In this document: piece by piece, positions 8,195-47,447 of the stretch
Numbering within the stretch: the first letter of the stretch is position 1
Layout: each line of letters begins with the position of its first letter
Assembly (NCBI GenBank): GCA_030426085.1
Contig: JAUHYW010000058.1
Coordinates: 1 to 64,000, forward strand
DNA: 64,000 nt
From: a bacterium
GTDB lineage: Bacteria; Myxococcota_A; Bradymonadia; UBA7976; UBA1532
Reading direction: 5' to 3'
Notes under the pieces: model-generated
The model's database searches: none
Seen by the model: only the letters and a program-made list of their open reading frames with translations
What the model was told of the DNA's origin: nothing
Made by a program: the position numbers and the translations under genes

Positions 8195-9088
8195 ATGGAC
8201 CTCGTGAGCCTCGATCGTTTCCGCCTGATCGCCGAGACCGGCAGCCTCACCGGGGCCGCCCGGGCGCTGGGCTGCACCCAGCCGACGCTGTCGGCGATGG
8301 TGCAGCGGCTCGAGGAGCATTACGGCACCACGCTGCTGCTGCGCACGAGCCGGGGGGTCGAGCCGACCGCGACCGGGCTGGTGCTGTTGCAGGAGTCGGC
8401 GGCGGTGCTCGATCGCTTCGCCGCCATCGAGCAGATCATCTCCGGCCTCGAAGACGGCGAGGTGGGGCACTTCGTGGTCGGCTGCCTCGACTCGCTGGGG
8501 GCCTACTTCCTGCCGTCCTTCCTGCCCGGCTTCGTGGCCGACGCGCCCCGCATCGCCATCAGCCTGTGGAACGGGCCCTCGGCCGATGTGCGGCGGCGGG
8601 TCATCGAGCGGGACGTGCACTTCGGGCTGGCGGTCAACCCCGAGCCGCACCCCGATCTGGTGATGGTCGACCTGTTCCGCGACGCGGTCGATCTCATGAC
8701 GCCCTCACCGGCCGGCTCGCCGGACGAGGCTCGGGCCCGCTTGACCCGGGGGCCCATCGTCTACGCCGAGCGGCTGCCGCAGGCCCAGGCGTACATGGAC
8801 TACTTCGCCGCCGAAGACATCCGCCCGTCCCGCTGGCTGAGCTGCGGCGAGCTGGAGCTGGTCAAGAGCCTCGTCGCCGGGGGGCACGGGGTCGGCATCC
8901 TGCCCCGCCGGGTGGCGCAATACGGCGAGCGGGGGCTGAAGCGGCTGCACCGCTCGCTGCCTTCGATGCCCGATCGCATCGTGCTGCTGTATCGGGGGGA
9001 CATCCACCGCACCCGGGCGGCGATGCGGCTCAAGGACGCGCTCGTCGAGCACGGGCGGGCGATGGACGCCGATTACGACGACAGCTGA
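8195..9088 (+). CDS. LysR-family transcriptional regulator
   Basis: A 297-residue LysR-type regulator. The N-terminal winged helix-turn-helix (residues 1-60) reads FRLIAETGSLTGAARALG then TQPTLSAMVQRLEEHYG. A C-terminal effector-binding domain (about 90-290) follows, with no unusual feature. A purine run (GAGGGGGGCG) precedes the ATG. It lies 98 bp from and divergent to the cytochrome lipoprotein gene, the classical arrangement for a LysR regulator and its target, so it may control 5451-8096. The effector is unknown. Confidence 0.88.
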   Translation: MDLVSLDRFRLIAETGSLTGAARALGCTQPTLSAMVQRLEEHYGTTLLLRTSRGVEPTATGLVLLQESAAVLDRFAAIEQIISGLEDGEVGHFVVGCLDSLGAYFLPSFLPGFVADAPRIAISLWNGPSADVRRRVIERDVHFGLAVNPEPHPDLVMVDLFRDAVDLMTPSPAGSPDEARARLTRGPIVYAERLPQAQAYMDYFAAEDIRPSRWLSCGELELVKSLVAGGHGVGILPRRVAQYGERGLKRLHRSLPSMPDRIVLLYRGDIHRTRAAMRLKDALVEHGRAMDADYDDS

Positions 9089-9103
9089 CGAGGCGCCTCC
9101 GGC

Positions 9104-11191
9104 TCAGCCGCCCCATGGCATGCGCTGGGGGTTGAAGCCCGGGTGGCTCGCCGTGATGGCGTCCGCGGCCGCGGTCGGCAGGCGGGCCCGACCCGCGGCG
9201 TCGGTGATGGCTTCGATGCCATCGGGGCAGCCTTCGCAGCGCACGGTGGCGCCCTCGACCGGGCGGCCGTCATCGTGGGCGGTGACGGTGACGTCGATGG
9301 CATCGGCGGCCGGGGTGGCTTCGGCGGTGAGGGCCAGCGTCGCCAGCCAGATGCCGCCCCCGCTCGCCACGTAGCGGGTGCGCACCCCGGTCTCGCGGAT
9401 GGTGGCCCTCAGCCCGCCCCGCCGGCTGGGGTCGACGAGCTCCATGCCATGGTCGCTCGTCAGCACGAAGAGCGTGTCGTCCAGCGCGCCCCGCATGGCA
9501 TACGCCTCGCGGATGACGGCCATCCGGGTGTCGATGCGGGCCAGCGTCTCCCGCAGCAACGCGCTGTGCGGGCCGGCCCGCTCGCCGGCGACGTCGGTGC
9601 TCAGGAAGCTGATCTGGGCCAGCGCGGGCACCGGGTAGCGGGCGCGGTCGCCGAGCACGCCCTTCAGCATCAGCTCGCCGAGGTTGTCGGCGGCATCGGT
9701 CTCGCCGAGGGTGGCCTTGGGCACGACGCCGAAGAAGTGCAGCGGGTCGTAGTCGGCCCCCCCGATGGTGATCTCGTTGAACACAGCGGTGAAGGCGTCG
9801 GGGCCCAGCGCCCGGTGCACCGCCTCGGAGACGGTCTCGACGTCGCCGCTGACGATGCGGGCGTACAGGGCGTAGAACCGCTCGGGCTCGGCGAAGTAGC
9901 TCGGCAGATCCTGCAAGACCGAGAACGGGTTGATCACCTCGCCCTCGAGCCGGCCGTAGAAGGCGTTGTCCACCACCCCGTGGTGCCCGGGCCAGGCGCC
10001 GGTGCCGGCGGTGGTGTGCCCCGGGGCCGAGTAGCTGGGGTAGCCGACGACCGCTCCGTGGCGGAAGACGGCGCCTTCGCGGGCCATCAGCCGGAAGGTC
10101 GGCAGCTCGATCGGCGGGTCGTCGGCCAGCATCAGGTGGTTCAGCTCGGCGGCGAGCAGGCCGTCGAAGAGCACCATCACGACGTGCTTCGGGCGCACGC
10201 AGGGGTCGGGGTCGAGGGCCTCCCAACGCACGACGCCGTCCTGCCGGGTGAGGTAGAGGCCGTCGGCGTAGGTGCCGTCGGGGCCGACGCCGCCGGTGGT
10301 GGGGATGCCCAGCGCGGCCAGCGCGGTGGGGGCCACGTCGACGAGCCGGGCGGGGGTGTCGAGCACGACGCCCCGCCGGGCGCCCTTGCCCGAGAGGACG
10401 AAGCTGGCCTGCGATTGCAAGAGCCCCAGCCCCCCGTGGCGCCCGGTGCCGCCGTGGGCCCAGGGCCACAGGTCGACGATCGCGTCGGGGGCGTCGGCGG
10501 CGTCGAAGGCGGTGGTCAGCCGCAGCAGCGGGTCGGGCCAGCTCTGGGCGTCGAGGGGCAGCCAGCCGACGCGGGGGTCGTCGGGCGCGTAGCCCCGGTC
10601 GGGGATCTCGACGCCGGCGGGGTTCTCCATGGCGTCGAGCAGGGCGGCGTAGTCGCCGTGGCGGGTGGGATCGGTGTCGGGGAAGACCGCGGCGACGTCG
10701 CCCTCGACGACCTCGAGGGCGGTGTGATCCGGGTGGTCGACCCGGCGCACGACGAGCCGGGCTCGGGCCTCGGGCGGGCCGCCTTCGATGATGTAGGCCG
10801 CGTCAGCGTGCGCGTAGGTGGCGACGAAGTGCACCGTCGGGTCGTCGAGCAGGCCGGCGCGCAAGGTGGCCCACGCTTCGGCTTCGAGGGGATCGATCCC
10901 GGCGGCCGCCGGCACGACGTCGGGCAGCGGGCCGTCGGGGCGCAGGGGCGTGGGCGGGGGCGCGCTGCAGCGGGCGGGCGCGGGGCCGGCGTCGGGGGCC
11001 GCGTCGGGCGGCGCGGGCGCCATGTCGGGCGTGGCGTCCGGCGCGGCGTCGGGGGTGGGATCGGCGAGCGCGTCGGGCGTGGCGTCCGGCGCCGGGGCGG
11101 GCATGGCATCGGGGGCTGGCTCGGCGGGCTCGGGGTCGTCACAGGCCGGCGCGAGCAGGCCGAGCAGCAGGGCGGGGATGAGGCGGCGCAT
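9104..11191 (-). CDS. Lipoprotein phosphodiesterase/alkaline-phosphatase-superfamily protein
   Basis: A 695-residue lipoprotein (LAPAC lipobox near residue 17) with a DA/PDATPD-rich linker to about residue 75. The catalytic domain belongs to the type I phosphodiesterase/nucleotide pyrophosphatase branch. It shows VVMVLFDGL (metal site), GYPSYSAPGHTTAGTG (nucleophile Thr region), WPGHHGVVDN and LTSDHGMELVDP (late metal-binding Asp-His). The last 90 residues look like a carboxypeptidase-regulatory or Ig-like module (GRPVEGATVRCEGCPDG, AAGRARLPT). It probably hydrolyses phosphate esters at the cell surface; the substrate is unknown. It converges on the LysR gene with a 15-bp gap. Confidence 0.82.
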   Translation of the reverse strand: MRRLIPALLLGLLAPACDDPEPAEPAPDAMPAPAPDATPDALADPTPDAAPDATPDMAPAPPDAAPDAGPAPARCSAPPPTPLRPDGPLPDVVPAAAGIDPLEAEAWATLRAGLLDDPTVHFVATYAHADAAYIIEGGPPEARARLVVRRVDHPDHTALEVVEGDVAAVFPDTDPTRHGDYAALLDAMENPAGVEIPDRGYAPDDPRVGWLPLDAQSWPDPLLRLTTAFDAADAPDAIVDLWPWAHGGTGRHGGLGLLQSQASFVLSGKGARRGVVLDTPARLVDVAPTALAALGIPTTGGVGPDGTYADGLYLTRQDGVVRWEALDPDPCVRPKHVVMVLFDGLLAAELNHLMLADDPPIELPTFRLMAREGAVFRHGAVVGYPSYSAPGHTTAGTGAWPGHHGVVDNAFYGRLEGEVINPFSVLQDLPSYFAEPERFYALYARIVSGDVETVSEAVHRALGPDAFTAVFNEITIGGADYDPLHFFGVVPKATLGETDAADNLGELMLKGVLGDRARYPVPALAQISFLSTDVAGERAGPHSALLRETLARIDTRMAVIREAYAMRGALDDTLFVLTSDHGMELVDPSRRGGLRATIRETGVRTRYVASGGGIWLATLALTAEATPAADAIDVTVTAHDDGRPVEGATVRCEGCPDGIEAITDAAGRARLPTAAADAITASHPGFNPQRMPWGG

Positions 11192-11265
11192 GGTCTCTCC
11201 GGCGTTCGGACCCCGTTCGTCGGGGCGCCATCATGCCCGATCGCCGCCCGCCGGCGCAGCCCGGG

Positions 11266-11766
11266 TCAGCCGATGCGCGCCGCGCCGTGGTCTCCGGCCT
11301 CGTCGGGGTCGATCGCCTCCCCCTTCACCGCGGCCTTGGTGGCCTCCCAGGCGAAGCGCAGCCCGGCCAGACCCGAGGCGTCCCAGTAGCGGCCGGTGGT
11401 GGCGTCCACCCGCAGCAGCACGGCGGCGTCGCCGTCGGGGCCGTCGGGGAACCACAGGTCGAGGGCCTCGCTCCACTTCGCCTTCAGCGTGGCGTCGTCG
11501 TCGACCACCTCGGCGGTGCCGACCAGCTCGACCTGTTTCGTCTTGCTCTGCATCGTCACCAGCACCCGGGCGTCGGCCGCGATCTGGTCGACCTTGCCGC
11601 TGCGCACGTCGGTGACGAACCACATCACGCCGTCGTCGGTCAGCTCGACGACGCTCATCGGGCGGGCTTTGAGGCCGCCGACGTGGTCATGGGTCACCAG
11701 CATCGCGGTGCCGAAGTCATCGGCGATGTCGAGCAGCGTCTTCCGGTTCTCTTCGGGGGTGCTCAT
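11266..11766 (-). CDS. Pyridoxamine 5'-phosphate oxidase-like (general stress protein 26 type) protein
   Basis: A 166-residue split-barrel flavin-binding family protein. The start at 11766 gives MSTPEENRKTLLDIADDF. Family features include AMLVTHDHVGGLKARPMSV, MWFVTDVRSGKVDQI and ARVLVTMQSKTKQVELVGTAEV, followed by a WSEALDLWFPDG block typical of the stress-protein-26 subgroup. Members bind FMN, FAD or F420 and their reactions are often unknown. It lies 86 bp downstream of the aldehyde dehydrogenase on the same strand and may be cotranscribed with it. Confidence 0.82.
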   Translation of the reverse strand: MSTPEENRKTLLDIADDFGTAMLVTHDHVGGLKARPMSVVELTDDGVMWFVTDVRSGKVDQIAADARVLVTMQSKTKQVELVGTAEVVDDDATLKAKWSEALDLWFPDGPDGDAAVLLRVDATTGRYWDASGLAGLRFAWEATKAAVKGEAIDPDEAGDHGAARIG

Positions 11767-11852
11767 GGGGGGCGTCTCCTCTCGGGTCGTGATTGCCGAC
11801 CATGGGAGTCGCCGTGGGTGGGGGCCGTTACCGGCCGGAGCCGGGCCGTCGC

Positions 11853-13340
11853 TCAGCTCAGGTTGATGATGATCGTCTTGCGGTGGGTGAAGTGCTCGAG
11901 CATCGCGTGCAGGTCGGCCTCCTTGCCCAGCCCGCTCGTCTTGAAGCCGCCGTAGGGCAGCGTCGGCTGCACGACGACGTTCTGGTTGACCTGCACGAAG
12001 CCCGCTTCGAGGGTGTGCACCGCGTTGAGCGCGAGCTTCAGGTCGTTGGTCCACACCGTGGCGGCGAGGCCGTAGTCGGTGTCGTTGGCCAGCGCCAGCC
12101 CCTCGTCGGGGTCGTCGAACGGGATGATGCAGGTCACCGGGCCGAAGATCTCCTCCCGGGCGACCTCGTGGTCGTTGGGGATGCCGGTGATGACGCACGG
12201 CTGCACGAACAGCCCGCCCTTCAGCGCCGGGTCGTCGGGCACCTTCGAGCAGCGGTGCAGCGTGGCGTCGGGGTGCTCCTCGGCCAGCTTCAGGAACCGC
12301 TGCACCCGCTCGAACTGCTGGGGGCTGACGATGGTGCCGATGTCGGTCGCCTCGTCGAGCGGGTCGCCCATCACCATCTCGTCCACCCGGGCGACGAGCC
12401 TCTCGACGAAGGCGTCGTGCAGGTCGCGGTGCACGAACATGCGGCTGGCGGCGGTGCAGCTCTGGCCCTGGCGGGTGAAGCGCATGCCGGTGATCGCGCC
12501 GTCCACCGCCCGGTCGAGGTCGGCGTCGGCCATGATGACCATCGGGCTCTTGCCGCCCAGCTCGAGGGTCACCGGCACCAGCTTCTCGGCAGCGGCCCGG
12601 TAGACGATGCGCCCGGTCTCGACCGATCCGGTGAAGGTGACCTTGGCCACGTCGGGGTGCGAGGCGAGCGGGCCGCCGCACTCGGGGCCGAAGCCGCTGA
12701 GGATGTTGAAGGTGCCCGGGGGCAGGATCTCGCCCATGATCTGGGCCACCCGCAGGCAGCAGAAGGGGGCCTCTTCGGCCGACTTGACGACGACCGTATT
12801 GCCGGCGACCAGCGCCGGCGCGATCTTGAGCGCCATCAGGAACATCGGCACGTTCCACGGGATGATCGCGCCGACCACGCCCACCGGCTCGCGCACGGTC
12901 ATCGTCAGGCACTCGGGCTTGTAGGGGATGGTCTCGCCCTTCAGCTCGCTGGCCAGCCCGCCGAAGTACACGAAGGTGTCGGCGAGCACGTTGCCCTCGG
13001 GGCGGCTCTCGGTGCGCAGCGCCTTGCCGGTCTCGAGCGCGACGAGGCGGCCCAGCTCTTCGGCGTGCTCGGCGAGCACCCGCCCGCACTCGGCGACGAG
13101 CTTGCCCCGCTCCCGGGCGGGCATGGCGGCCCACGCCTTCTGGGCCTTCTTCGCCGAGGCGACGGCGGCGTCGACGTCGGCCGCCTCGCCCAGCGCCGCC
13201 TCGCCGATGCTCGCCCCGGTGGCCGGGTTGATCACCGGGAAGGTCTTCCCGCTCGCGGCGGGCACCAGCGCGCCGTCGATGAAGTGATGGCCGGCGAGCG
13301 CGCCGGCGAGGGACTCGGGGTCGGTGTCGAAGCGGATCAT
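11853..13340 (-). CDS. NAD(P)-dependent aldehyde dehydrogenase
   Basis: A 495-residue full-length ALDH-superfamily enzyme oxidising an aldehyde to the acid. Visible motifs are VGVVGAIIPWNVPMFLM (cofactor site), SAEEAPFCCLRVAQI, FTGSVETG, the catalytic glutamate region LELGGKSP and the nucleophilic cysteine in GQSCTAASR, and the C-terminal PYGGFKTSGLGKEADLHAM. Substrate specificity cannot be read from the sequence. It is preceded 51 bp upstream by the Ser/Thr kinase on the same strand and followed by the PPOX-like gene. Confidence 0.92.
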   Translation of the reverse strand: MIRFDTDPESLAGALAGHHFIDGALVPAASGKTFPVINPATGASIGEAALGEAADVDAAVASAKKAQKAWAAMPARERGKLVAECGRVLAEHAEELGRLVALETGKALRTESRPEGNVLADTFVYFGGLASELKGETIPYKPECLTMTVREPVGVVGAIIPWNVPMFLMALKIAPALVAGNTVVVKSAEEAPFCCLRVAQIMGEILPPGTFNILSGFGPECGGPLASHPDVAKVTFTGSVETGRIVYRAAAEKLVPVTLELGGKSPMVIMADADLDRAVDGAITGMRFTRQGQSCTAASRMFVHRDLHDAFVERLVARVDEMVMGDPLDEATDIGTIVSPQQFERVQRFLKLAEEHPDATLHRCSKVPDDPALKGGLFVQPCVITGIPNDHEVAREEIFGPVTCIIPFDDPDEGLALANDTDYGLAATVWTNDLKLALNAVHTLEAGFVQVNQNVVVQPTLPYGGFKTSGLGKEADLHAMLEHFTHRKTIIINLS

Positions 13341-13391
13341 GGGCTCTCCTCGCGCTGAGCGGGGGGCACTACAGCAGAAGAGGGGCGATTT

Positions 13392-14759
<1,368 letters not shown>

Positions 14760-14859
14760 GGGGCGCGCGCCGTTCGATCGTGGTCGCTGACGGCAGCCTA
14801 TCAGAAGAATGGCAGGAGGCCATCTCTTCGCAGTGTTCGGCGTGCGCTGCGAGACCGCG

Positions 14860-16416
14860 TCAGGGTCCGTCGGCCCGCGGCAGCCACAGCGTGACCCGGG
14901 CCCCGCCCGAGGCGGCCCGGTCGATGTGCAGCTCGCCGCCGTGGCCCTGCACGATGCCGAGGGTGACCGAGAGGCCGAGCCCGGTGCCGGTGCCCTCGGG
15001 CTTGGTCGAGAAGAACGGGTCGCAGACCCGGTCGATGTCGGCCTCGGGGATGCCGGGGCCCTCGTCCTCGACGCGGATAGCGGCCCGGTCGCCCTCGACG
15101 GGGTGGCCGACGTGCACGACCGCGCCCTCGGGGCTGGCGTGCACCGCGTTGAGCAGCACGTTCATCGCCGCCTGCATGAGCTGCTGGCGGTCGCCGACGA
15201 CGTACTCCGGCGGCTCGGGGCGGGCGTGCACCACCCGCACCCGGCCCTTGTGCATCGCCGGTCGGATCAGGAGCAGGCAGCCGTCGATGATCTCGGTGAC
15301 GTCGACCCGATCGCGGTCGCTGGCGGTGGGGCGGGCGTAGCTGAGCAGCGCCGAGACGATGCGCTCGATGCGCTCGAGCCCGTCGAGCACGGTGGCGAAG
15401 TAGGTCTCCCGGCGGCGCTCGGGCACCTTGCCGTCGCGCAGCTGCTTGACGCAGGCCATGGTGCCGGCGAGCGGGTTGTTGATCTCGTGGGCCACCCCGG
15501 CGGCGAGCAGGCCCACCGACGAGAGCTTCTCGGCCTGAAGCAGCCGCGACTGCTCTTCGAGGATGTGCTGGTTGGCCGCCTCGAGCTCGTCGACCGCCCG
15601 GGCGAGCGCCGCTTCGGCCCGCTTGCGGGCGGTGATGTCGTTGCGGATGGCCAGGTAGCGATAGGGCCGCCCCTTGCGGTCGAGGAAAGGCACGATGGTG
15701 GTCGCGACCCAGTACTCGCTGCCGTTGCGGGCCCGGTTGCACACGTCGCCCCGCCAGACCTGCCCCCGGCCGATCGTGGCCCACATCTTCTTGAAGAAGC
15801 TGCGCGGGTGATAGCCGCTGTTGACGATGCGGTGGGTCCGGCCGAGCAGCTCGTCGCGGCTGTAGCCCGAGATCGCGCAGAAGGTGTCGTTGGCGTAGGT
15901 GATGACGCCCTTGCGGTCGGTGGCGGCGACGATGCTCGCCTCGTCGATGGCGTAGCGCAGGTCGAGGAGCTGCTCGAGCGCGGCGGCCATCGAGCGGCCG
16001 TCTTCGCTGTCGGCGAGCAGGGCCCCGGTCAACCGCACCACGGCCGGGCCGTCGGCGTCCCGGATGATCACCGCGTGCCAGTGGATGTCGTGCACCGCGC
16101 CGTCGGCCGCCCGGCAGCGGCCTTCGAAGGTGATCGGCCGGTCGTTGTCGGCCTCGATCAGCCGCCCGATCTCGCGCCGGTGCACCGCCCGGTGCTCGGG
16201 GTCGGCGCAGTGCTCGAACCAGTCGATGCCCGGCCCGACCGGCTCCCCGTTGCCCAGCAGGCTGCGGGCGGCGCGGTCGGCCCACACCACCTGACCCTCG
16301 AGGGTCAGCTCGACGGTCAGCGCCACCACGTCGGTCTTGGGCCCCGTCATCTTGTCGGGCTGCAGCACGGCGCCGTGAACACGACCCCGGCCATCGTCAC
16401 CGAAGACGACTGACAT
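14860..16416 (-). CDS. PAS-domain sensor histidine kinase
   Basis: A 518-residue soluble kinase with no TM segment. The PAS-like region spans about 25-275, with a clear second PAS/PAC (IVAATDRKGVITYANDTFC, YLAIRNDIT), then a coiled linker. The H-box is LLAAGVAHEINNPLAG with the phospho-His near residue 309. The N-box is AAMNVLLNAVHAS and the G-boxes are DEGPGIPE and GTGLGLSVTLG. GGAGG precedes ATG 16416. It starts 27 bp after hemN on the same strand, so they are probably cotranscribed. Its likely partner is the divergent NtrC-type regulator at 18069. A redox or haem-related signal is a guess from context. Confidence 0.9.
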   Translation of the reverse strand: MSVVFGDDGRGRVHGAVLQPDKMTGPKTDVVALTVELTLEGQVVWADRAARSLLGNGEPVGPGIDWFEHCADPEHRAVHRREIGRLIEADNDRPITFEGRCRAADGAVHDIHWHAVIIRDADGPAVVRLTGALLADSEDGRSMAAALEQLLDLRYAIDEASIVAATDRKGVITYANDTFCAISGYSRDELLGRTHRIVNSGYHPRSFFKKMWATIGRGQVWRGDVCNRARNGSEYWVATTIVPFLDRKGRPYRYLAIRNDITARKRAEAALARAVDELEAANQHILEEQSRLLQAEKLSSVGLLAAGVAHEINNPLAGTMACVKQLRDGKVPERRRETYFATVLDGLERIERIVSALLSYARPTASDRDRVDVTEIIDGCLLLIRPAMHKGRVRVVHARPEPPEYVVGDRQQLMQAAMNVLLNAVHASPEGAVVHVGHPVEGDRAAIRVEDEGPGIPEADIDRVCDPFFSTKPEGTGTGLGLSVTLGIVQGHGGELHIDRAASGGARVTLWLPRADGP

Positions 16417-21270: not shown

Positions 21271-22113
21271 GTGAAGTCCTGCCTCTCGTGCCGCGCCGAC
21301 GTCCCGCCTCCGGTGGCGGTGTGCCCGTTCTGCGGGGCCCGCTTCGCCGACGCGCCGCCCCGGCCCTCGAACCCGGCCGATCCGGCCGCAGCACCGGCCG
21401 ATCCCGAGGCCAGCGAGCTGCCGCCGCCGCGCCAGGACAGCCACCTGCTTCAGCTCCCGCCGGCCCCGATGGTGATCATGGGCGGCGCCCGCGCCCGCCG
21501 GGCCCGGCAGCGGCGGGGCCTGTGGCTGGCGGTGCCGGTGGCGCTCGTGCTGGTGGGGCTGGTGGCCTACGGGGTGCGGGCCCGGGGGGTCGCGCTGCCG
21601 ATCGAGGGGCTGGATCCGATCCTGGCCGACGAGCCGGTGGTCTGCGGGGACGCGCCCGACTGCGTGATCGTCTACCTCGCGCCGTGGGACGCGGCGAGCC
21701 GGGAGACCGCCGAGCTGCTGCCGGCGCTGCGGGCGGCCTGGGCCGAGGACGGGCCGGCGCTCGAGGTCGTCGTCGGCGCCGGGGCCCGGGACGAAGCGGC
21801 GCGCATGGCCCGGGCGGTCCGCGGTTCGAGCTGGGTCGATCCCCGCGACGCGCTGCCCGCCGCGCTCGAGCTGACCACGGTGCCCACCTGGCTGCGGGTG
21901 ACGTCGGGCCGGGTCGTGCGCCGGGTGGACGGGACCTTCCTGCCCCTCGACCGGCAGCTCGAGGCGCTGGATCTGCCGCTGCTCGGCGACGAGGAAGAGG
22001 GGGCGCTCGACGAGCGGCGGGTGCTGACCGGCGAGGCCGCCCCGGCCGACCGGGCCGGCGCGCTCGACGGCGCGGACGCCCGCGACGAGGCCGAAGCGGC
22101 CCCGGACGAGTAG
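21271..22113 (+). CDS. Zinc-ribbon membrane protein with thioredoxin-like C-terminal domain
   Basis: About 280 residues. A zinc ribbon opens the protein (KSCLSCRADVPPPVAVCPFC), then a disordered Pro/Ala stretch, one TM helix near residues 85-107 (LWLAVPVALVLVGLVAYGV), and a domain with thioredoxin-like flavour (DCVIVYLAPWDAASRETAELL, AALELTTVPTWLRVTSGRVV) that lacks a CxxC pair at the expected site. The GTG at 21271 puts the ribbon at the very N-terminus, the usual layout. In-frame ATGs at 21241 and 21187 are alternatives, and no start has a clear ribosome site. The role is unknown, perhaps an assembly or redox accessory factor. Confidence 0.65.
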   Translation: MKSCLSCRADVPPPVAVCPFCGARFADAPPRPSNPADPAAAPADPEASELPPPRQDSHLLQLPPAPMVIMGGARARRARQRRGLWLAVPVALVLVGLVAYGVRARGVALPIEGLDPILADEPVVCGDAPDCVIVYLAPWDAASRETAELLPALRAAWAEDGPALEVVVGAGARDEAARMARAVRGSSWVDPRDALPAALELTTVPTWLRVTSGRVVRRVDGTFLPLDRQLEALDLPLLGDEEEGALDERRVLTGEAAPADRAGALDGADARDEAEAAPDE

Positions 22114-22120
22114 CCCCGGC

Positions 22121-22795
22121 TCAGCCCAGCAGGCTGAGGGCGGCGATCGTACCCACCCCCAGCGCCCCGCCCAGCGCCAGCCAGCGCGCCCCCTGCGACG
22201 GGGCGTGCAGGCCGTGCCCCAGGACGTGCAGCAGCGCGCCCGAGACCAGGGCGAGGAAGAGCGCCGAGCCGAACGGCGGCAGGTCGTGCAGCAGCGGGTC
22301 GCCGGCGACGAAGCCCACCACGGTCGCCGCGACCATCACCCCCAGGATCGCGATCACCGCCCGCCGCCCGGCCACCTCGGCCAGCGCCCACCACACGAGC
22401 AGGCCCACCGGCAGGCGGTGCACGATCACCGCGACCGCCAGCGAGGCGTGGGTGTGATCGTGGGTGTGCTCGGGCATGGTCAGGGCCGCCCCGTCGATCA
22501 GCGCGTGCAGGGTGAGGCCGCCGACCGCGAACAGCGTCGCGCCCGCCCGCCCGGACTCGTCGGCCAGCCGCCGCTCGACGAGCCAGGGCAGGGCCGCGCC
22601 CACCGCCAGCGCCGCCGCGGCCCAGACCCCGGCGTCGGCGAAGGCCGCCGGGGCCAGGTGCAGGGCGACGAGGCCGCCGATGGTCACCATCACGTAACCG
22701 TCGAGCACGCGCCGGAGCCGGGCGTCGGGCTGCGCCAGCCCGATCAGGATCGGACCGGCCAGCAGCGCGGCGATGCTGAGCAGGAGCAGGGGCAT
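22121..22795 (-). CDS. ZIP-family-like metal transporter
   Basis: A 224-residue membrane protein with about seven to eight hydrophobic helices. The middle has a His-rich loop (PEHTHDHTH) between helices carrying LTLHALIDGAAL and VIVHRLPVGLLVWW, which correspond to the metal-site helices 4 and 5 of ZIP transporters (H-N/x-x-x-D/E-G and H-E/x-x-P-x-x). Several canonical ligands differ (Arg instead of Glu after His), so transport specificity and activity are uncertain. It converges on the zinc-ribbon gene with a 7-bp gap. Confidence 0.65.
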   Translation of the reverse strand: MPLLLLSIAALLAGPILIGLAQPDARLRRVLDGYVMVTIGGLVALHLAPAAFADAGVWAAAALAVGAALPWLVERRLADESGRAGATLFAVGGLTLHALIDGAALTMPEHTHDHTHASLAVAVIVHRLPVGLLVWWALAEVAGRRAVIAILGVMVAATVVGFVAGDPLLHDLPPFGSALFLALVSGALLHVLGHGLHAPSQGARWLALGGALGVGTIAALSLLG

Positions 22796-22861
22796 CGGGC
22801 TCGGGGGGTCGAGGATATCCGGCGGAGACTAGGAGGGCCCCGGGGGGAAGTCAACGCGGGT

Positions 22862-22869
22862 CACCCCGC
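22862..22869. repeat. Target-site duplication, left copy
   Basis: CACCCCGC directly abuts the left inverted repeat and is repeated at 25746-25753 abutting the right one. It sits within a GC-rich imperfect palindrome of the target DNA. Confidence 0.8.
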
Positions 22870-22887
22870 GGTAGTGGCCTACTTTGA
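22870..22887 (+). repeat. Left terminal inverted repeat
   Basis: GGTAGTGGCCTACTTTGA, identical over 18 bases to the complement of 25728-25745. It is the outer end nearest the transposase stop codon. Confidence 0.88.
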
Positions 22888-22909
22888 CCGCGACCCGCGC
22901 CGTGCCGCG

Positions 22910-23773
22910 CTATGCCGCGGAAACCGTCAGATTCTCGTCGGGTAGCGGCCACCCCAACAGATCCTCGACCGCCCACGTCTTCGTGACCAACCCCGACGCC
23001 ATGGCAGGGGTGAGTCCGTCGAGCGACATGTGCGGCCGGACGAAGTTGTAGAAGGCGAAGTGCAGCGCGATGGCCGCCTTGTGGTTCGCGAGCTTCTTGC
23101 TGAATGCGTTCGTCAGCCGGGTGAAGCGCCGCATCATCATCCGCATCGTGAGGTTCTGCCGCTCGACGAACGAGGTCGAGATCAGCGACTCGTCCGGGTG
23201 GCCGACCAGCGGGGTCTTCGTCGTCCACTGCACCTTCTGCGGGCTGTACTTGCCCAGGCCGGGGTGACCGGCGCCGAAGTGCTTCACGAGCTGGGCATAC
23301 GTGCACTCGGGCCCGAACACCTGCTCGATGGCGTCGACGTAGGACGACAGGCCGTCGCTGGTGAGCTGCGGCGTACAGGCCAGCCGCGGGGCAAGGTCGG
23401 AGATGAACGCCAGCGCCGAGCCCGCATCGCGCCCGCCGACGTGATGGTTGATGACCAGCTTGGACTTCGCGCACAGCGAGACCCAGACCCAGGCGTCGCC
23501 GACCTTCCGGCCCTTCGCCTTGTCCTCTTCGGTGATGTTCTTCTTCTTCTTGCCCACGTAGGACCAGATCTCATCGAGCTCGATGACGGGCGCGTGGACT
23601 TCGTAGACCATTTCGTCGAGCAGATCGGCGCAGCGCGCGCCGACGTCGACCAGCAGCCGGAGGACGGTGCCGCGGTTGACGCCGGTGATCCGGGCCGTGC
23701 TGCGGATGCTGTTGCCCTCGACCAGCGCCCGCACGACGGCCGCCTTACGCTCTACAGGGAGGTGATTGGCCAT
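22910..23773 (-). CDS. IS1-type DDE transposase
   Basis: A 287-residue transposase in one frame. The N-terminus is an HTH (NSIRSTARITGVNRGTVLRLL), then the DDE core. The first acidic site is in VIELDEIWSYVGKKKKN, the second in LTSDGLSSYVDAI, and the C-terminal signature is STSFVERQNLTMRM, with ANHKAAIALHFAFYNFVRPH. This is the single-frame IS1-like group common in soil bacteria. It looks intact: the catalytic block and both element ends are present, so the element may be mobile. The start is at 23773. A rightward terminator hairpin lies 85 bp upstream of the start. Confidence 0.9.
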   Translation of the reverse strand: MANHLPVERKAAVVRALVEGNSIRSTARITGVNRGTVLRLLVDVGARCADLLDEMVYEVHAPVIELDEIWSYVGKKKKNITEEDKAKGRKVGDAWVWVSLCAKSKLVINHHVGGRDAGSALAFISDLAPRLACTPQLTSDGLSSYVDAIEQVFGPECTYAQLVKHFGAGHPGLGKYSPQKVQWTTKTPLVGHPDESLISTSFVERQNLTMRMMMRRFTRLTNAFSKKLANHKAAIALHFAFYNFVRPHMSLDGLTPAMASGLVTKTWAVEDLLGWPLPDENLTVSAA

Positions 23774-23857
23774 GGGGTTCCCCTTGACTCGGCAGGGGGA
23801 ACGGCGCGACCCTCAGAGGTACCACGCTCGGTGACGGTGTACGCCGTTCCGGGTTGG

Positions 23858-23893
23858 AGCCCGTCCGAAGCGCCAACTTCGGGCGGGCTTTTC
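23858..23893 (+). terminator. Strong intrinsic terminator reading rightward
   Basis: Arms AGCCCGTCCGAAG (23858-23870) and CTTCGGGCGGGCT (23877-23889) pair over 13 bp with one G-T, loop CGCCAA, followed by TTTTCTAT. It ends + strand transcripts only, yet no + strand gene precedes it within the element. The upstream arm can also pair partly with CGCTCGG near 23825, so an attenuator-like alternative fold is possible. Confidence 0.75.
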
Positions 23894-24273
23894 TATATGT
23901 TGTGTGCCTCGCTTCTGACAACGTCAGTATAACACAGGAGCCGCATAGCCGCGCGGTTTTGAGGCACATTAGCCCACCATTTGTTCAGTATCGCGTGCGG
24001 TCCTCCGATGCCACCGCAAGGTCACGCTCTGCGGTCGCATGCGGCGGGCTGTGAGTGGTCGCCCGGGTCCGGCCCACGGGCCGACGGGACAAGGTGGGCT
24101 GAACGGCGAGCAGGGCCGCGCAAGTGCGCGCACCGGTAGCGTTTCGGGGTCTGCGCATCGCAGAGACCTCCCATTCGACGCACGTCTGGCGTCGAGAAAG
24201 AGTTGATCTTGTGGTGCGAGTGCCCTAGCGTGCGGGTGTTCTTTCGCTGCTTGGGCGCTCGCTCGACAGCTAG

Positions 24274-24301
24274 AAACCCCTCGGTGGCAGCCGGGGGGTT
24301 T
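24274..24301 (-). terminator. Probable terminator of the XRE passenger gene
   Basis: Read on the minus strand, AAACCCC and GGGGTTT arms flank a GC-rich loop and are followed by TTTCTAG. It lies about 210 bp downstream of the XRE stop at 24508. It is a shorter T-tail than the terminator at 23858. Confidence 0.5.
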
Positions 24302-24464
24302 CGCGTTTCAGGGCTACTTCACGGGCAAGCCTCCAGTGTCTTCGAATCCGTCTAGCGAATGAAAATTCGACACGACGAATGACGATCCGACACGAGGCTA
24401 TGGGTATGACATACGGCGGGTCAAGGGACTTCGTTGCGAAGTCCGCGCGGCGCATAAGGCTAAC

Positions 24465-24499
24465 TTGATCAGTCACCTTGATCAAGCTGGATTTGATCA
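24465..24499. repeat. Three TTGATCA repeats (operator-like)
   Basis: TTGATCA occurs at 24465, 24478 and 24493, with spacings of 13 and 15 bp, just downstream of the XRE stop codon. The middle copy extends to the palindrome TTGATCAA. Three 7-mers this close in GC-rich DNA are unlikely by chance. A further TTGATC lies near 24204. Confidence 0.5.
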
Positions 24500-24507
24500 C
24501 GCTGGAC

Positions 24508-24786
24508 TTATTCGCCTGACGAATCCTCGTCGGGCAGCGGGTCGAGCAGATCCCGCACGTCGATGAGCAGGACCCACGCCAGGGCGGCGAGGGTGTTCAT
24601 GCGGGCGTCGTTCTTCTCGTCCTGTAGCAGCCGATAGATCGTGGACTTCGCCACGCCGCTCCGCTCCGAGAGCCGGGTGATGGTGATCCCCGTCCGGTCG
24701 ATCCGGTCCGCAAGCCGCTGACGGATGCGTCTGGCGGCCCTCACGCGGGCGGCCTGGATCTCGGGGTCGTCGGCGGGTTTGGCCAT
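24508..24786 (-). CDS. XRE/HTH regulator (IS passenger)
   Basis: A 92-residue DNA-binding protein with a Cro/CI-type HTH at about residues 28-75 (IDRTGITITRLSERSGVAKS then TIYRLLQDEKN). The C-terminus ends in an acidic tail (LLDPLPDEDSSGE). The start at 24786 gives MAKPADDPEIQAAR; a longer reading to 24876 has a poorer N-terminus. It diverges from the sigma-like gene at 24953 across 166 bp and could repress it. Related XRE genes occur next to the homologous sigma-like gene in the 46-64 kb element. Target sites may be the TTGATCA repeats (inference). Confidence 0.78.
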   Translation of the reverse strand: MAKPADDPEIQAARVRAARRIRQRLADRIDRTGITITRLSERSGVAKSTIYRLLQDEKNDARMNTLAALAWVLLIDVRDLLDPLPDEDSSGE

Positions 24787-24870
24787 GCGGCGAGGATACC
24801 GCCGCCCAACCCGGCCGGCACACCGCAGCGAGAACACGGCGCATACGACCTGAGTTTCGGTCATTAGCCG

Positions 24871-24898
24871 TTGCAAATATTGGACTCGGGCCGATAGT
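24871..24898 (+). promoter_or_regulatory. Candidate sigma-70-type promoter for the sigma-like gene
   Basis: TTGCAA at 24871 and GATAGT at 24893 with a 16-bp spacer form a plausible -35/-10 pair in the only AT-rich patch of the divergent region. They are 55 bp upstream of the ATG at 24953. This is pattern evidence only. Confidence 0.4.
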
Positions 24899-24952
24899 GT
24901 CAGGCTGACAGCCCGGCGATGGACGCTCGCCGGTGTCGGAGAGGAGCCCCCG

Positions 24953-25618
24953 ATGACGACTGGCCCGAAGTCGACGCCACCCGTGCGTCAACGCGACCCG
25001 ACCGCCCGGCGGATGCTGGCCGACGTGCTCGCCTTGGAGGGGTCGCGCTGGCCCGAGACGCGCCCGGCCTATGCCGCGGCCCTGCTACGCCTCGCAACGC
25101 GCTGTGAGCGGATCGAGGCGCGCGCGGAGATGTACCAGTGGGCGACGGTCGAGTTCGGCGGGCTGCTGAACCAGCGCAGCGAACGGGTGAGCGAGTGCAG
25201 GGCCGACGCCCTCGCCGACGTGGTGGCCGAGATCGCGGGGACGCTGCTGCGCTTTCGGTCGGGGCTCGACGATGCGCGCTGGCCCAACCTCACGTCGATG
25301 CTGCGGGCGGCGATGCTCTGGACGTCGACGGATATCTACCGCATCCGCTACGAGCGGCACACCAGCCGCACAGCGCCCGAGCTGCGCGACGGCGACCGCC
25401 CGGCGGTGGGCCGTCCCGACGCCCGCACGCTGGCCAACGAAGTCCTCGCCCTGCTCGCGGACGACGCTCGGACTTCGAAGGCGCTGCGGCTGGTCGGGCT
25501 GGGCTACAGCGTGGCCGAAGCCGCTCGCCGAACCGGCGCGAGCCGACAGCAGATCTACCGGGCGCGGGATGAACTGCTGTCGAGGATCGAGGGGGAGGAC
25601 GATGCGGGCGATGAATGA
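24953..25618 (+). CDS. Sigma-region-4-like HTH protein (IS passenger)
   Basis: A 221-residue protein preceded by GGAG (cggagaggagcccccG region) and starting MTTGPKSTPP. It shows a helical N-terminal half (SRWPETRPAYAAALLRLATR, ARWPNLTSMLRAAMLW) and a C-terminal HTH resembling sigma region 4 or a resolvase-type HTH (LRLVGLGYSVAEAARRTG then ASRQQIYRARDELL). It shares the same order of motifs with the protein at 48913-49671 (DRWPAEREAYRRALLELA; GRPNLASMLAKRL; GLAEGHSLADIGRAIGRN). It is probably a transcription factor, sigma-like or activator. No canonical sigma region 2 is apparent, so true sigma activity is doubtful. Confidence 0.75.
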   Translation: MTTGPKSTPPVRQRDPTARRMLADVLALEGSRWPETRPAYAAALLRLATRCERIEARAEMYQWATVEFGGLLNQRSERVSECRADALADVVAEIAGTLLRFRSGLDDARWPNLTSMLRAAMLWTSTDIYRIRYERHTSRTAPELRDGDRPAVGRPDARTLANEVLALLADDARTSKALRLVGLGYSVAEAARRTGASRQQIYRARDELLSRIEGEDDAGDE

Positions 25619-25727
25619 CCCGGCGGTGAGATGTCAGGATGCCCGAGACTGTTGCGGCGTGCGGCGTTGAGGCTTTGACGGTCGAGTCCGGCGGAGTCGA
25701 GGCGGGAAGGTCAAGGGCGGGATCCGC

Positions 25728-25745
25728 TCAAAGTAGGCCACTACC
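25728..25745 (-). repeat. Right terminal inverted repeat
   Basis: The exact complement of the left repeat over 18 bases. It is followed directly by the second CACCCCGC target duplication (25746-25753). Confidence 0.88.
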
Positions 25746-25760
25746 CACCCCGCGGGATCG

Positions 25761-27542
25761 TCAGCCGTCGGCCGGCGGATCCCACGGCACCCGGGGATCG
25801 TCCTCGGGATCGGTGACCCCCGGGGCCGGCGGATCGGCGGGGTCGGTGCTCGCCGGGATGCCTTGCAGCCAGGTGCAGCGGGTCAGCCCCAGCAGCTCGC
25901 CGAGGTGGAGCTGGACCTCGCCCTCTTCGCGGCGGGGGTGCACGACCGCCGCCGCCAGCTCGATGCGCCCGCCGCCGAGCCAGACGATGTGCCGCCGGGA
26001 CAGGGCGGTGTCGGTGAGGGTGGTGTCGTCGTACAGCCGGTGCTCGGCCCGCCGGCTGCCGCTCGCCCGGCCGAGCGCCTCGCCGGGCAGCAGCGCCACC
26101 CGCCGCCCGTCCTCGGGGCCGCTGAGGACCTCGAGGGCCTCGGCCAGACCGTCCGGCTCGCGCCAGGTGTCGTCGGCCTCGGTCAGCTCGGGGTCGGCCA
26201 TCGCCGTCGGGGTCCGCATCGGCCGCCGGGGGTCGTCGAGCAGCACCTGCACCGTGGCCCGGGCGTCGGCCAGCAGGTGAAGCCACAGATCCTCGGGGCT
26301 GAAACCCACCGACAGCTTCGGCCCCAGCCGCCGCAGGCGGGGCGTCGGGCGGATGAGCAGCGGCTCGGTCTGGCGGGGGGCCCAGCCGCCCAGCCGGCTC
26401 TCGAGCATGCGCCGCCGGGCCCCGAAGCGATAGCGCAGCCGCACCAGCCCCGAGCGGGGCGGGGCCTCGACGAGCGCCAGGGCGAGGTGCTCGATGCCCA
26501 CGAAGCCCGACCCGGCCTCCTCGGCGCGCACGTAGGCCGCCTCGATCATCCGGGCCGCCTCGGGGCCGGGCATCGGCCAGCCGTCGGGCCAGCGCTCGCC
26601 CCGCAGGACGGGTGAGGCCAGGCCCGGCACGCTCGCCGCGGTCAGGATGCCCCCGTGCACCACCCGGTGGACCTCGGGCAGCGTGCGGCGGGCGGTGGCG
26701 ATGGCGTCGGCCAGCGCGCGACCGCCGGCCAGGGCCCCGTAGAGCCCGTCGAGGAACGGGCCCACGCTGCCGGCCGGCATCGGGTGGTGGGGTATGAGGC
26801 AGGCCCGGGCGCCCAGATCCATCAGCCGGGCGGTGATGCGCGGCCGGCCCACCGGGCGGGCCGCGCCGGGGAACCACGGCACGACCAGATCGGCCCGGGC
26901 GATGTGATCGGCGACGTGCACCGCGTCGGCCCCGCCGAGCACGTCGAGCAGCGCGGCCAGCTGCCCCTGGGGCACGATCAAGTGCAGGACGAGGCCATGA
27001 TCGGGCGGCACGCCCACCGCCAGGGAGGTCGACGGGGGCAGCCCCTGGCGCACGCAGCTCCCGTCGATGAGGCGCCGGAGCTGCTCGGCGACCGGGTCGT
27101 CCCCCAGGAGCCGCACCCGGGTGCTCAACCCGGCGCCGACGCGCGGCCGGTCGCGCTCACGGGGGGCGAGGCGGGCGACGATCAACCCGTCGAGGGCCGC
27201 CTCGCCGGTGGGGCCGGGGCGCCCGAGCCCCTCCCAGGGCAGGTTGCGGACGCCGGGCACCACGCTCTCGATGACCAGCAGCATCGACGCCCGGTGGGTG
27301 CGGGCCGCGCCCCGGGCGGCCCCGAACACCCCGGCGAGGGCCGGGCTGGCGTCGAACAGGGTGGACAGCGCCGGCCGGGGGTCGGCGTGCCCCGCCGCGA
27401 GGGCGTCGAGCTCGGCCCGCAGCCGGCGCACCCGAGTGGCCTCGAGGCGGGCCCGGGCCGGGGTCTCGTGAGGCGCGCGGCAGGAGACCCGCCAGCTCCC
27501 GCCGGCGGTGCTCTCGATGCCGAGGTGGATCTCGATGACCAT
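25761..27542 (-). CDS. Multidomain protein: CHAT-like, Clp-N-like and FHA-like domains
   Basis: A 593-residue protein. CCGGAG precedes ATG 27542. Residues about 60-310 look like a caspase-related CHAT domain, best seen in its second half: AVHVADHIARADLVV, then LGARACLIPHHPMPAGSVGP and FLDGLYGALAGGRALADAI. The usual Cys of the second catalytic motif is not evident, so it may be inactive. Residues about 340-385 resemble a Clp N-repeat (MIEAAYVRAEEAGSG then FVGIEHLALALVEAP). Residues about 480-540 resemble an FHA phospho-Thr module (ALGRASGSR, LTDTALSRRHIVWLGGG). It is probably a signalling or conflict protein that reads kinase activity. All domain calls are motif-based. Confidence 0.6.
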   Translation of the reverse strand: MVIEIHLGIESTAGGSWRVSCRAPHETPARARLEATRVRRLRAELDALAAGHADPRPALSTLFDASPALAGVFGAARGAARTHRASMLLVIESVVPGVRNLPWEGLGRPGPTGEAALDGLIVARLAPRERDRPRVGAGLSTRVRLLGDDPVAEQLRRLIDGSCVRQGLPPSTSLAVGVPPDHGLVLHLIVPQGQLAALLDVLGGADAVHVADHIARADLVVPWFPGAARPVGRPRITARLMDLGARACLIPHHPMPAGSVGPFLDGLYGALAGGRALADAIATARRTLPEVHRVVHGGILTAASVPGLASPVLRGERWPDGWPMPGPEAARMIEAAYVRAEEAGSGFVGIEHLALALVEAPPRSGLVRLRYRFGARRRMLESRLGGWAPRQTEPLLIRPTPRLRRLGPKLSVGFSPEDLWLHLLADARATVQVLLDDPRRPMRTPTAMADPELTEADDTWREPDGLAEALEVLSGPEDGRRVALLPGEALGRASGSRRAEHRLYDDTTLTDTALSRRHIVWLGGGRIELAAAVVHPRREEGEVQLHLGELLGLTRCTWLQGIPASTDPADPPAPGVTDPEDDPRVPWDPPADG

Positions 27543-39473: not shown

Positions 39474-40346
39474 TCACTCGGGCAGCGCGCCCTCGATGGC
39501 GGCCCGGATGTCGTCGAGCGCGCCGTACTGGTCGCGGAAGACGATCTCCCCGGCGGGGTCGAGCACGACGTGGCCGTCGTTGACCGGCAGGTCGTAGGCC
39601 GCGCGCAGGGCGCCCTCGGGGTCGTAGAGCACGGGCAGGGTCAGGCCGTAGGTGCGGCGGATGCGGTCGCAGGTCTCGGCGTCGGGCGGGCCGAAGTCGT
39701 CGTCGGCGCCGATGACGAACCACGCGGCGACGGCCTCGGGGTCGAAGGCGGCGTAGAAGTCCTCGGTCTGCGCGGCGAGCGCCCGGCACGGGGGGCACCA
39801 GGCGGCGAATTCGAAGATCCAGGTGGCCCGGCCGCAGGTGTCGTGCAGGCGGTGGGGGTTGCCCTCGCAGTCGGTGAGCACGACGTCGGGGCCGATGTCG
39901 CCGATGGAGGTGCCGAAGGGGCCGGCGGGCGGGCACAGCGCGGCTTCGCCCTCGCCCTCGCCCTCGCCTTCACCTTCGCCCTCGCCTTCACCTTCGCCCT
40001 CGCCTTCACCTTCGCCCTCACCTTCACCCTCGCCCTCGCCCTCGCCCTCGCCCTCGCCCTCGCCTTCACCCTCGCCTTCGCCTTCGCCTTCGCCCTCGCC
40101 TTCACCTTCGCCCTCGCCTTCGCCTTCACCCTCGCCCTCGCCCTCGCCCTCGCCCTCGCCCTCGCCCTCGCCCTCGCCCTCACCCTCGCCTTCGCCCTCA
40201 CCCTCGCCCTCGCCCTCCCCGCCCACGGCGCCGTCGATCGACGGCCCGGCGTCGGGGTCGTCATCGCTGCCCCCGCCGACGGGCGTGCAGGCGGACGTGA
40301 AGAGGATCGTCGAGGCGGCGAGAGCGATCAGGCGCAGCGGAAGCAC
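39474..40346 (-). CDS. TlpA-like thioredoxin lipoprotein with long Gly-Glu repeat linker
   Basis: A 290-residue lipoprotein. The lipobox is FTSAC near residue 19, followed by [11 protein letters not shown] and then about 46 Gly-Glu dipeptides (residues about 42-134). The rest is a thioredoxin fold with WCPPC in [32 protein letters not shown] and a cis-Pro-type [18 protein letters not shown]. It is likely an extracytoplasmic thiol reductase or thiol-related protein on a long acidic tether. It is a single frame; loss or gain of repeat units keeps the frame because the DNA unit is 6 bp. Confidence 0.88.
39943..40220. repeat. Hexanucleotide repeat (GGCGAG/GGCGAA), ~46 units
   Basis: On the minus strand GGCGAG or GGCGAA repeats without interruption for about 278 bp and encodes (Gly-Glu)n. 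Mixture of GAG and GAA codons shows the array is old enough to have synonymous changes. Length is likely to vary between strains. Confidence 0.92.
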
Positions 40347-45947: not shown

Positions 45948-47447
45948 TCACGCTGTTCCTGAATCTGTTCCTGGATCGGTGCCGTGCAGCGGGGTGACGT
46001 TGACGTCGATGTAGCTGGCGACGTCGATCGAGCGCGCCCGCTTCGTCACCTCGTCGCCCCGCGCCTCCCAATAGTGCCGGGCGGCCACCTCGTAGCTGTG
46101 CCCCATCAACGCCTCGTAGTCGGCCGGCGCCATGCCCGCACGGATCGCCTCGTTGCTGAAGAGGGCTCGGAGGTCGTTCGGGCGCCATCGCTCGCCGCCG
46201 ATCTCGTTCCATGGCACCCGGTTGAAGAGCTGGGTGATCCGACGGCTCAGCGTCCTCGACTTGCGCCCGGCCAGCCGGGTGCCGATCAGCTTGTCGTCCG
46301 GGCTGCCCGGGTTCAGCTCGAGCAGTTCATCGATCAGCGCCACGGCCGCGGCCCCGGCCGGGATCCGTCGCTCACCCGTCTTCCCCCGGACATCGACGAA
46401 CACCCCGTCCGGTAGCCGGACCACATCCCGCCGGCGGATGCTCCAGACCTCACCGATCCGGGCGCCGAGGAGCAGTTGCAACCGCAGGGCGCGCCCGATG
46501 TCTGGCTGGTTCTGTGCGAGCCACCTGAAGGTCTGCCGCAGCACCGCCCGATCGGGTGCTCGACTCCGCTTGGTGGGCTCGTAGCTCAGCGATACGAACT
46601 CGGGCGGGGCCGTCAGCGGGACCCGCCCGGCTTTGACTGCCCGCCGTATGGCCGGCCTGAGCACGCTGAAGAGGTTGCGCAGGGCCTGCGGGCCCACTCG
46701 CTTGCCATGGCTGCCCTGCATTCGACGCAGCGCATAGCGCTCGATGTACGCGGCGGTCAGCTCGACGACTCGCAGCTCGCCGAGGTCACGATCGATGACC
46801 CGCTGAGTGCTGCGGTACTGCTCCAGCGTGCGGGGCCGGAGCGTGCCGGTGACCTCTCGCCAGTCCAGGTACTCGGCGACGGCCTCCCGCACCGTCAACG
46901 ACGCGTCAGCGACCTCCTGGAAGCGGCCGAGGTCGTCGGGCTGGGGCGGGGTCTGACGCTGGGTGGCAGCCAGCGCTGCGGCGATCGACGTCACGCACTC
47001 AGCGCGCGTGGCCCATCCCGAGCCCGACGGCGTGTGCGCCGTGATGCTGAACCCGACCTGGCCGGGGTACCGGCGCACCTTCCAATATGTGCGTTCTCCC
47101 CTCCATCCCCTGCCCCGGACCACCTGGGCCCTGACCTCGGTGCCGTCCGCCGCATCGATCCGGATGGACCGTGGCCACCGACTCGCCATCTCCTCGTGCT
47201 CATCATCCCCGCCGAGTATCCGGCCCGCCGCGACCGACCGGCAGATAGCCGGTGCGGCTGGCGACGCCGGACGTGCCGCGAACGCGGCGATGACCTGCCC
47301 CCACACGACCCGCGGGCGGCCGCACACGAAGGTGACGAGCCCACGCGCGTACAGCTCACGACGGGCCTCGGCTTCGCGGATACCCAGGTGCCGAGCAGCT
47401 CGACTGACGCTGACGATCTCGTGGGGTTGGGGGGGCGACGCCGTCAT
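45948..47447 (-). CDS. Tyrosine recombinase / integrase
   Basis: A 499-residue phage-type integrase. An N-terminal region with an excisionase-like HTH (VSRAARHLGIREAEARRELY) precedes an arm-binding part, a SAM-like core-binding domain (LTVREAVAEYLDWREVTGTL), and the catalytic domain. That domain has Arg in LLLGARIGEVWSIRR, RPNDLRALFSNEA (Asn where HxxR usually has His), LMGHSYEVAARHYWEA with His and the nucleophilic Tyr. ATG 47447 is used; GTG 47492 is a possible longer start, and neither has a good ribosome site. It directs site-specific integration and excision of the element to its right. Confidence 0.85.
   Translation of the reverse strand: MTASPPQPHEIVSVSRAARHLGIREAEARRELYARGLVTFVCGRPRVVWGQVIAAFAARPASPAAPAICRSVAAGRILGGDDEHEEMASRWPRSIRIDAADGTEVRAQVVRGRGWRGERTYWKVRRYPGQVGFSITAHTPSGSGWATRAECVTSIAAALAATQRQTPPQPDDLGRFQEVADASLTVREAVAEYLDWREVTGTLRPRTLEQYRSTQRVIDRDLGELRVVELTAAYIERYALRRMQGSHGKRVGPQALRNLFSVLRPAIRRAVKAGRVPLTAPPEFVSLSYEPTKRSRAPDRAVLRQTFRWLAQNQPDIGRALRLQLLLGARIGEVWSIRRRDVVRLPDGVFVDVRGKTGERRIPAGAAAVALIDELLELNPGSPDDKLIGTRLAGRKSRTLSRRITQLFNRVPWNEIGGERWRPNDLRALFSNEAIRAGMAPADYEALMGHSYEVAARHYWEARGDEVTKRARSIDVASYIDVNVTPLHGTDPGTDSGTA

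Follow-up and report, generated by a model that had tools for sequence, protein, structure and literature searches.

Sigma-like proteins in the window

The 64,000-nucleotide stretch of bacterial DNA analysed here (the window) carries, as passenger of an insertion element, a protein (P1) that we read as a divergent ECF-type (group IV) sigma factor which, together with a divergently transcribed XRE repressor, would steer RNA polymerase to promoters of the element or of its neighbours. We put the probability of this reading at about two in three. P1 belongs to a family of switch proteins, unnamed until now and restricted to one lineage, whose most likely role is to redirect RNA polymerase, and the window holds a second member, P2, in a prophage.

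24953-25618, + strand: P1, 221-residue divergent ECF-type sigma-like protein (ORF, homology, predicted fold)
48913-49671, - strand: P2, second family member, in prophage; homologous part about 49039-49671

Both ORFs were found where the original prediction had located them, and they do share three motif blocks in the same order, as it had proposed: RWPETRPAYAAALLRLA in P1 and RWPAEREAYRRALLELA in P2, then PNLTSML and PNLASML, and finally GYSVAEAARRTGASRQQIYR and GHSLADIGRAIGRNRQRVYR. For the second block, predicted as RxNLxSML, the shared core is PNLxSML; the arginine before PNL did not hold, as P1 has W there. By BLASTP in a single comparison, the two proteins showed 31% identity over 194 aligned residues (E 2e-10). 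The similarity takes in the helical N-terminal region and the PNLxSML block as well as the C-terminal HTH, and so runs along the whole protein, whereas similarity confined to a generic HTH had been named beforehand as the outcome that would speak against kinship. When P1 was used as query against its own 10.1-Mb genome, eight further members were retrieved, with P2 the weakest of them (E 1.9e-6), and the set retrieved with P2 overlapped largely with that of P1. Judged by their sequences, P1 and P2 are true relatives in one sigma-like family, a proposal supported by the whole-length homology and by the predicted fold.

Fold and profile evidence

AlphaFold2 was run on six sequences. The P1 model (pLDDT 78) comprises helices at residues 16-134, a low-confidence linker at about 135-155 and four helices at 156-217, from which two domains were assigned.

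24998-25354, + strand: predicted sigma2-like helical domain of P1, residues 16-134 (AlphaFold2 and structural matches to sigma2 domains)
25418-25603, + strand: predicted sigma4 HTH of P1, residues 156-217 (model, structural and profile matches)

In a Foldseek search of the PDB with this model, the top 14 matches were all sigma factors (CnrH, SigH, sigmaA and RpoE among them), with weak E-values of at least 0.24, and sigma factors made up the majority of the top 50. The best VIA matches were mainly sigma2 and sigma4 domains, and in VIA-align the former fell on P1 residues about 16-140 and the latter on about 160-219, at Z scores of at most 6.4, a level that can arise by chance for helical bundles, which match promiscuously. 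The viral structure library (BFVD) likewise yielded sigma-type matches. Since the structural scores are weak, the argument rests on the consistency of the sigma matches and not on the score.

Profile comparisons were made on 19 family sequences, nine from the window's genome and 10 from relatives. Pfam PF07638 (Sigma70_ECF) matched 10 of the 19, four of them above its cut-off (L014, L015, L080 and L081); L014 scored 28.4 bits against a cut-off of 21.1 over residues 118-227. TIGR02937 matched L079 at residues 75-205, below cut-off. The family profile aligned with a profile of 25 ECFs from the same genome at 95% over 107 columns (hhalign). In the control, the sigma2 part taken alone gave about 1% probability, against 97% for sigma4; the family HTH was likewise matched by an XRE profile, at 94%. 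The sequence signal shared with known ECF sigmas is thus carried mostly by the sigma4 HTH. A TetR_C match of P1 (E 0.0018) was set aside: it fell short of the cut-off, and a TetR protein would need its HTH at the opposite end.

Neither P1 nor P2 reached the cut-off of any curated sigma model, the best Pfam matches of P1 were generic HTH models, and its N-terminal domain was unmatched by sequence. These points favour an explanation that we nevertheless consider unlikely, in which P1 is a two-domain DNA-binding regulator that has kept or mimicked a sigma4 HTH and works with the XRE protein as an ordinary repressor or activator, its N-terminal helical domain serving oligomerisation or partner binding. 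Against this, the fold search was dominated by sigma factors across both domains, and the PF07638 alignments reach upstream of the HTH in L014, L079 and L081. In the proposed comparison with sigma regions 2 and 4, a sigma2-linker-sigma4 fold is predicted, its matches are weak, and the sigma2 assignment comes from structure prediction, the sequence by itself giving no match. A divergent ECF-type sigma factor is our best reading of P1, with sigma activity suggested by the modelled fold.

ECF sigmas are by definition limited to sigma2 and sigma4, with fewer than 50 residues of linker between them (PMC8103513). The family resembles group IV sigmas of the TIGR02937/PF07638 type in its predicted sigma2-linker-sigma4 layout with a short, non-conserved linker, and differs from them in an extra N-terminal helix and in a sigma2 region too divergent for curated models. 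The claim that no named family has this architecture needs qualifying: the proteins map to the ECF sigma superfamily (PF07638, TIGR02937), within which no curated group covers them. A new ECF-like group with a mobile branch is likely.

Distribution and the chromosomal branch

Nine members were found in the window's genome and about as many in a congener (G209, MAG JAUHXC01). Eight positions are invariant across the 19 sequences, mostly in the HTH (G-x10-G-x2-RQ-x2-YR), together with A86 and N112 in P1 numbering. With a family-wide profile run on 284 genomes of the phylum, full-length members were confined to one taxonomic family (the window's genome, the congener and four more genomes), and only partial matches, mostly to the HTH, were obtained outside it. 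The congener was the sole source of relatives in a sequence search of genome contigs, and none of P1 or P2 was found in viral contigs, phage records or plasmids. The ECF-like sigmas of Cronobacter phage vB_CsaP_GAP52 and Agrobacterium phage Atu_ph04 (BFVD) are likewise phage-carried and have the sigma2/sigma4 fold; their structural similarity, however, is weak, and is unaccompanied by any sequence relative in those viral and phage collections. In the tree, the P1 clade received support of 100/99 and P2 branched outside it.

At six of eight chromosomal-branch loci (L015, L016, L074, L079, L080 and L081), the sigma gene is followed by a gene that overlaps its end, start to stop, and encodes a membrane protein that has a single hydrophobic helix and carries HxxxCxxC close to its N-terminus. 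The background rate of HxxxCxxC was 4 in 426 proteins. An HxxxCxxC motif near the N-terminus with a single hydrophobic helix is the hallmark of zinc anti-sigma factors, and the pairing offers independent support for the ECF reading; it also argues against the ordinary DNA-binding regulator, since ECF sigmas are paired in this way. A recognised anti-sigma gene was not found at P1-type loci or beside P2, which for the P1 clade counts in favour of that regulator, although a cognate anti-sigma factor is usual, not universal, for ECF sigmas.

The family thus resembles ECF sigmas in the zinc anti-sigma-like partner of its chromosomal branch and departs from them in the P1 clade, which has a divergent XRE gene and a helical companion instead. 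The chromosomal member on C31 and its congener counterpart are syntenic, adjoining kdsB- and kdsA-like genes (gene names assigned by eye), so the chromosomal branch looks vertically inherited. The family offers a paired comparison within one genome, of chromosomal sigma/anti-sigma orthologues with mobile sigma/XRE paralogues.

The XRE-sigma cassette of the P1 clade

P1 is preceded by a divergent regulatory gene.

24508-24786, - strand: XRE-type HTH protein of a subfamily specific to P1-clade sigmas
24787-24952: divergent XRE/P1 intergenic region, presumed operator/promoter; neither a promoter nor a palindrome reached significance

A divergent XRE gene lies directly upstream of the sigma operon in 10 of the 10 readable members of the P1 branch, that is, in P1 and nine others (C89, C145, C104 and C73 in the window's genome; C84, C89 twice, C65 and C29 in the congener, the C29 copy being frameshift-broken and left out of the tree), and does not do so in P2. 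Seven of these XRE proteins form a tight subfamily, all seven beside a P1-clade sigma and found nowhere else: among all genes of seven genomes, subfamily members scored 1e-37 or better and the next gene 1e-8. Seven to eight cassettes hold, between the XRE and sigma genes, a helical companion of about 145 residues that the P1 cassette does not have. Against Pfam the companion gave no match at E 0.1, hence no sign of a peptidase, kinase, WYL or STAS domain; its model is helical and of low confidence (pLDDT 68), and a fold search gave no meaningful match. Pairs of XRE and companion genes that stand free of a sigma gene were also noted in the congener (L155, L156, L157, and L153 at 8629-15488).

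Between copies, XRE and sigma identities were uncorrelated (r = 0.08), and this want of co-divergence argues against tight contact of the two proteins. In C145 and the congener copy G89b, the XRE proteins are 86% identical, the sigmas 59% and the companions 30%, and the best-shared stretch is 347 bp consisting of the XRE gene and part of the intergenic region. These sequences suggest that the copies trade repressor together with operator, much as phage immunity regions do. Some ECF groups are transcriptionally regulated or repressor-linked, for example ECF265 with PadR (PMC8999054). The P1-clade sigmas, standing beside a presumed repressor gene and with no recognised anti-sigma gene, are like such transcriptionally controlled groups. 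They differ from those of the ECF265/PadR type in that the repressor is an XRE protein, apparently swapped from copy to copy, and in belonging to a mobile unit.

An IS1-family element carries P1

The cassette in the window consists of the XRE gene and P1 only, and lies inside an insertion element.

22870-25745: IS1-family insertion element, 2876 bp, with passenger genes (ends, duplication, empty site)
22870-22887 and 25728-25745: terminal inverted repeats GGTAGTGGCCTACTTTGA, 18/18 bp perfect
22862-22869: target duplication CACCCCGC, 8 bp, left copy
25746-25753: target duplication CACCCCGC, 8 bp, right copy
22910-23773, - strand: transposase, IS1 family (PF03400, 35.4 bits, cut-off 24.1)

The ends and the 8-bp duplication were confirmed, as was the place of P1 as an IS passenger, proposed originally. 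In addition, contig C18 of the congener is collinear with this neighbourhood at 74-86% identity, with a gap of 140 bp corresponding to about 3 kb in the window; this is the empty site of the element. The features that define IS1 (a DDE_Tnp_IS1 domain, terminal inverted repeats and a duplication of 8-9 bp) were all found, and plasmid-borne relatives of the transposase are annotated as IS1 family transposase. The DDE transposase (PF03400), terminal repeats starting with GG and 8-bp duplication are typical of the family; unlike it, the element is 2.9 kb long with two divergent regulatory passenger genes. Related long IS1-group elements of other genera, L199 (3.84 kb) and L204 (2.73 kb), have different passengers, with ends GGTAGTG... 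and 8-bp duplications.

The position of the XRE-P1 pair inside the IS, adjoining the transposase, would suit a role in regulating the IS itself (transposase expression or transposition) and not defence or prophage genes. We regard such a role as very improbable: no transposase of this kind lies near the remaining P1-clade cassettes, the window's genome holds one copy of the element and one match to its transposase, and L199 and L204, of similar length, carry other passengers.

Within the IS, three TGATCA sites (24466, 24479 and 24494) lie just downstream of the XRE gene at spacings of 13 and 15 bp. The gene directly outside it (25761-27542) appears by eye to encode a CHAT-type peptidase-like protein with an FHA segment, Pfam giving only a weak Clp_N match. 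An Rfam scan of 22000-27000 gave no match. An ARAGORN tRNA-Ala call at 21352-21442, placed within a predicted protein gene, is probably spurious.

P2 and its prophage

The P2 prophage contains an integrase, a terminase and a DNA methyltransferase.

45948-47492, - strand: tyrosine integrase at the edge of the P2 prophage
50905-51177, - strand: XRE near P2, generic, outside the P1-partner subfamily
49672-50004, - strand: 111-residue segment in frame upstream of P2, with one hydrophobic helix (GWVLATVAAMLCIAPVAGA) and a Cys-rich stretch

An XRE gene had been noted close to both P1 and P2. This is true, but the two are not equivalent: that of P1 is partner-specific, while that of P2 is generic, lies on the same strand two genes away and scores E 1.4e-7, compared with 1e-37 to 1e-43 within the subfamily. 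The further claim that two mobile elements carry the same module was not borne out, P1 and P2 falling in different branches and their XRE proteins not sharing a subfamily. A mobile regulatory cassette describes the P1 clade, where the XRE-(companion)-sigma unit recurs, and does not extend to P2, a prophage gene of another branch of the same family with no P1-type cassette.

The P2 frame overruns the HTH by about 40 codons, into the next gene, and base composition by codon position switches to that gene's frame after about 49040. Upstream, the frame is open to an ATG at 50004, which has an ATGA overlap with the previous gene, and a Shine-Dalgarno-like GGGAGG precedes the internal ATG. The frame may encode a fusion anchored in the membrane, or may comprise two genes, the stop between them having been lost. 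At 48632-49072, it has no stop before the frame of the next gene (fusion, recoding or assembly error). Elsewhere in the window, positions 39474-40346 encode a protein with a GEGE repeat run of about 100 residues after a lipoprotein-like signal.

Genomic settings and proposed mechanism

As a repressor-plus-sigma cassette, the P1 branch recurs in the transposon, in prophages and in anti-phage defence islands. Genes close to the cassettes encode PglW and an OLD-like nuclease at L012, a TIR-kinase-FGE protein at L013, a NACHT-FGE protein at L011, a caspase-like protein at L010 and a TIR-kinase-nucleotide-cyclase protein at L076. At L071 and L072, the neighbours are prophage-like operons shared with L014, which itself has a family member.

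Our model builds on the observed homology, conserved gene order, partner-specific XRE subfamily and IS mobility, while sigma activity, repression, targets and trigger are what it proposes. The dedicated XRE protein would repress the divergent promoter until DNA damage, invasion or superinfection inactivated it. The sigma factor, in which a short linker would join a sigma2-like domain to a sigma4 HTH, would then be made and would direct RNA polymerase to promoters within or beside the element, activating prophage or defence/effector genes. The window's XRE-P1 unit has no companion and is a passenger of the IS1-family element. Promoter searches in eight XRE/sigma intergenic regions gave none better than dinucleotide shuffles at p < 0.05, and a palindrome scan of the same regions gave a single standout, an 11-bp palindrome in congener C89, so the XRE/sigma mechanism is a model from architecture.

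A narrower form of the model, a mobile ECF-type switch with a swappable repressor whose sigma activates adjacent prophage or abortive-infection genes and so serves as a sigma-based immunity controller, is put forward tentatively, and we would sooner doubt it than rely on it. It is possible, with somewhat better prospects, that cassettes and defence or prophage genes merely share integration hot spots and that the sigma targets lie elsewhere in the chromosome. Integrases occur near several cassettes (L010, L012, L072), the congener has a different integrase at the L010 hot spot, and the orientation of the cassette toward the defence gene is variable, as shared hot spots would predict; they would not predict that the TIR-kinase gene at L013 follows the sigma gene by 119 bp on the same strand, nor that sigma-less XRE-companion pairs also adjoin TIR-like proteins (L153).

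CapW, CapH with CapP, and CapK with CapS are controllers of immune operons, CapH being a helix-turn-helix protein with a partner (PMC13373217). Like these, several P1-clade copies are small regulator genes located at diverse immune genes, over which control is predicted; unlike them, the second component of the cassette is a sigma-like protein. The controllers known from immune operons comprise repressors, kinases and peptidases. Sigma-based control of immunity is possible; if it exists, transposons, prophages and defence islands would have another way to seize host RNA polymerase, through a mobile sigma factor whose repressor can be swapped.

Several of these loci have features of their own. 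At L076, positions 9879-13889 encode a single 1336-residue protein combining TIR, kinase and CBASS-type nucleotide cyclase, and the adjacent sigma gene is split into two frames. In the C73 sigma gene (L013, 10242-10994), a TGA stands in frame in place of the conserved WP-motif Trp, which probably reflects either decay of this copy or an error in the sequence. L013 11113-14721 and L011 73-7338 encode conflict-type proteins with a terminal FGE-sulfatase domain, those of L011 in tandem and 82% alike in DNA over part of their length. A diversity-generating retroelement was considered near L013 and L011 and rejected, an RVT_1-like ORF by L013 being below cut-off and no template/variable repeat pair being found there. 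The prophages of L161 and of congener C89 (L072/L162), which also hold family sigmas, have giant ORFs of 4909 residues (L161, 1030-15759) and 4269 residues, the former polyvalent-protein-like with methylase and SNF2 helicase domains. At L153, two TIR-like proteins follow the XRE-companion pair.
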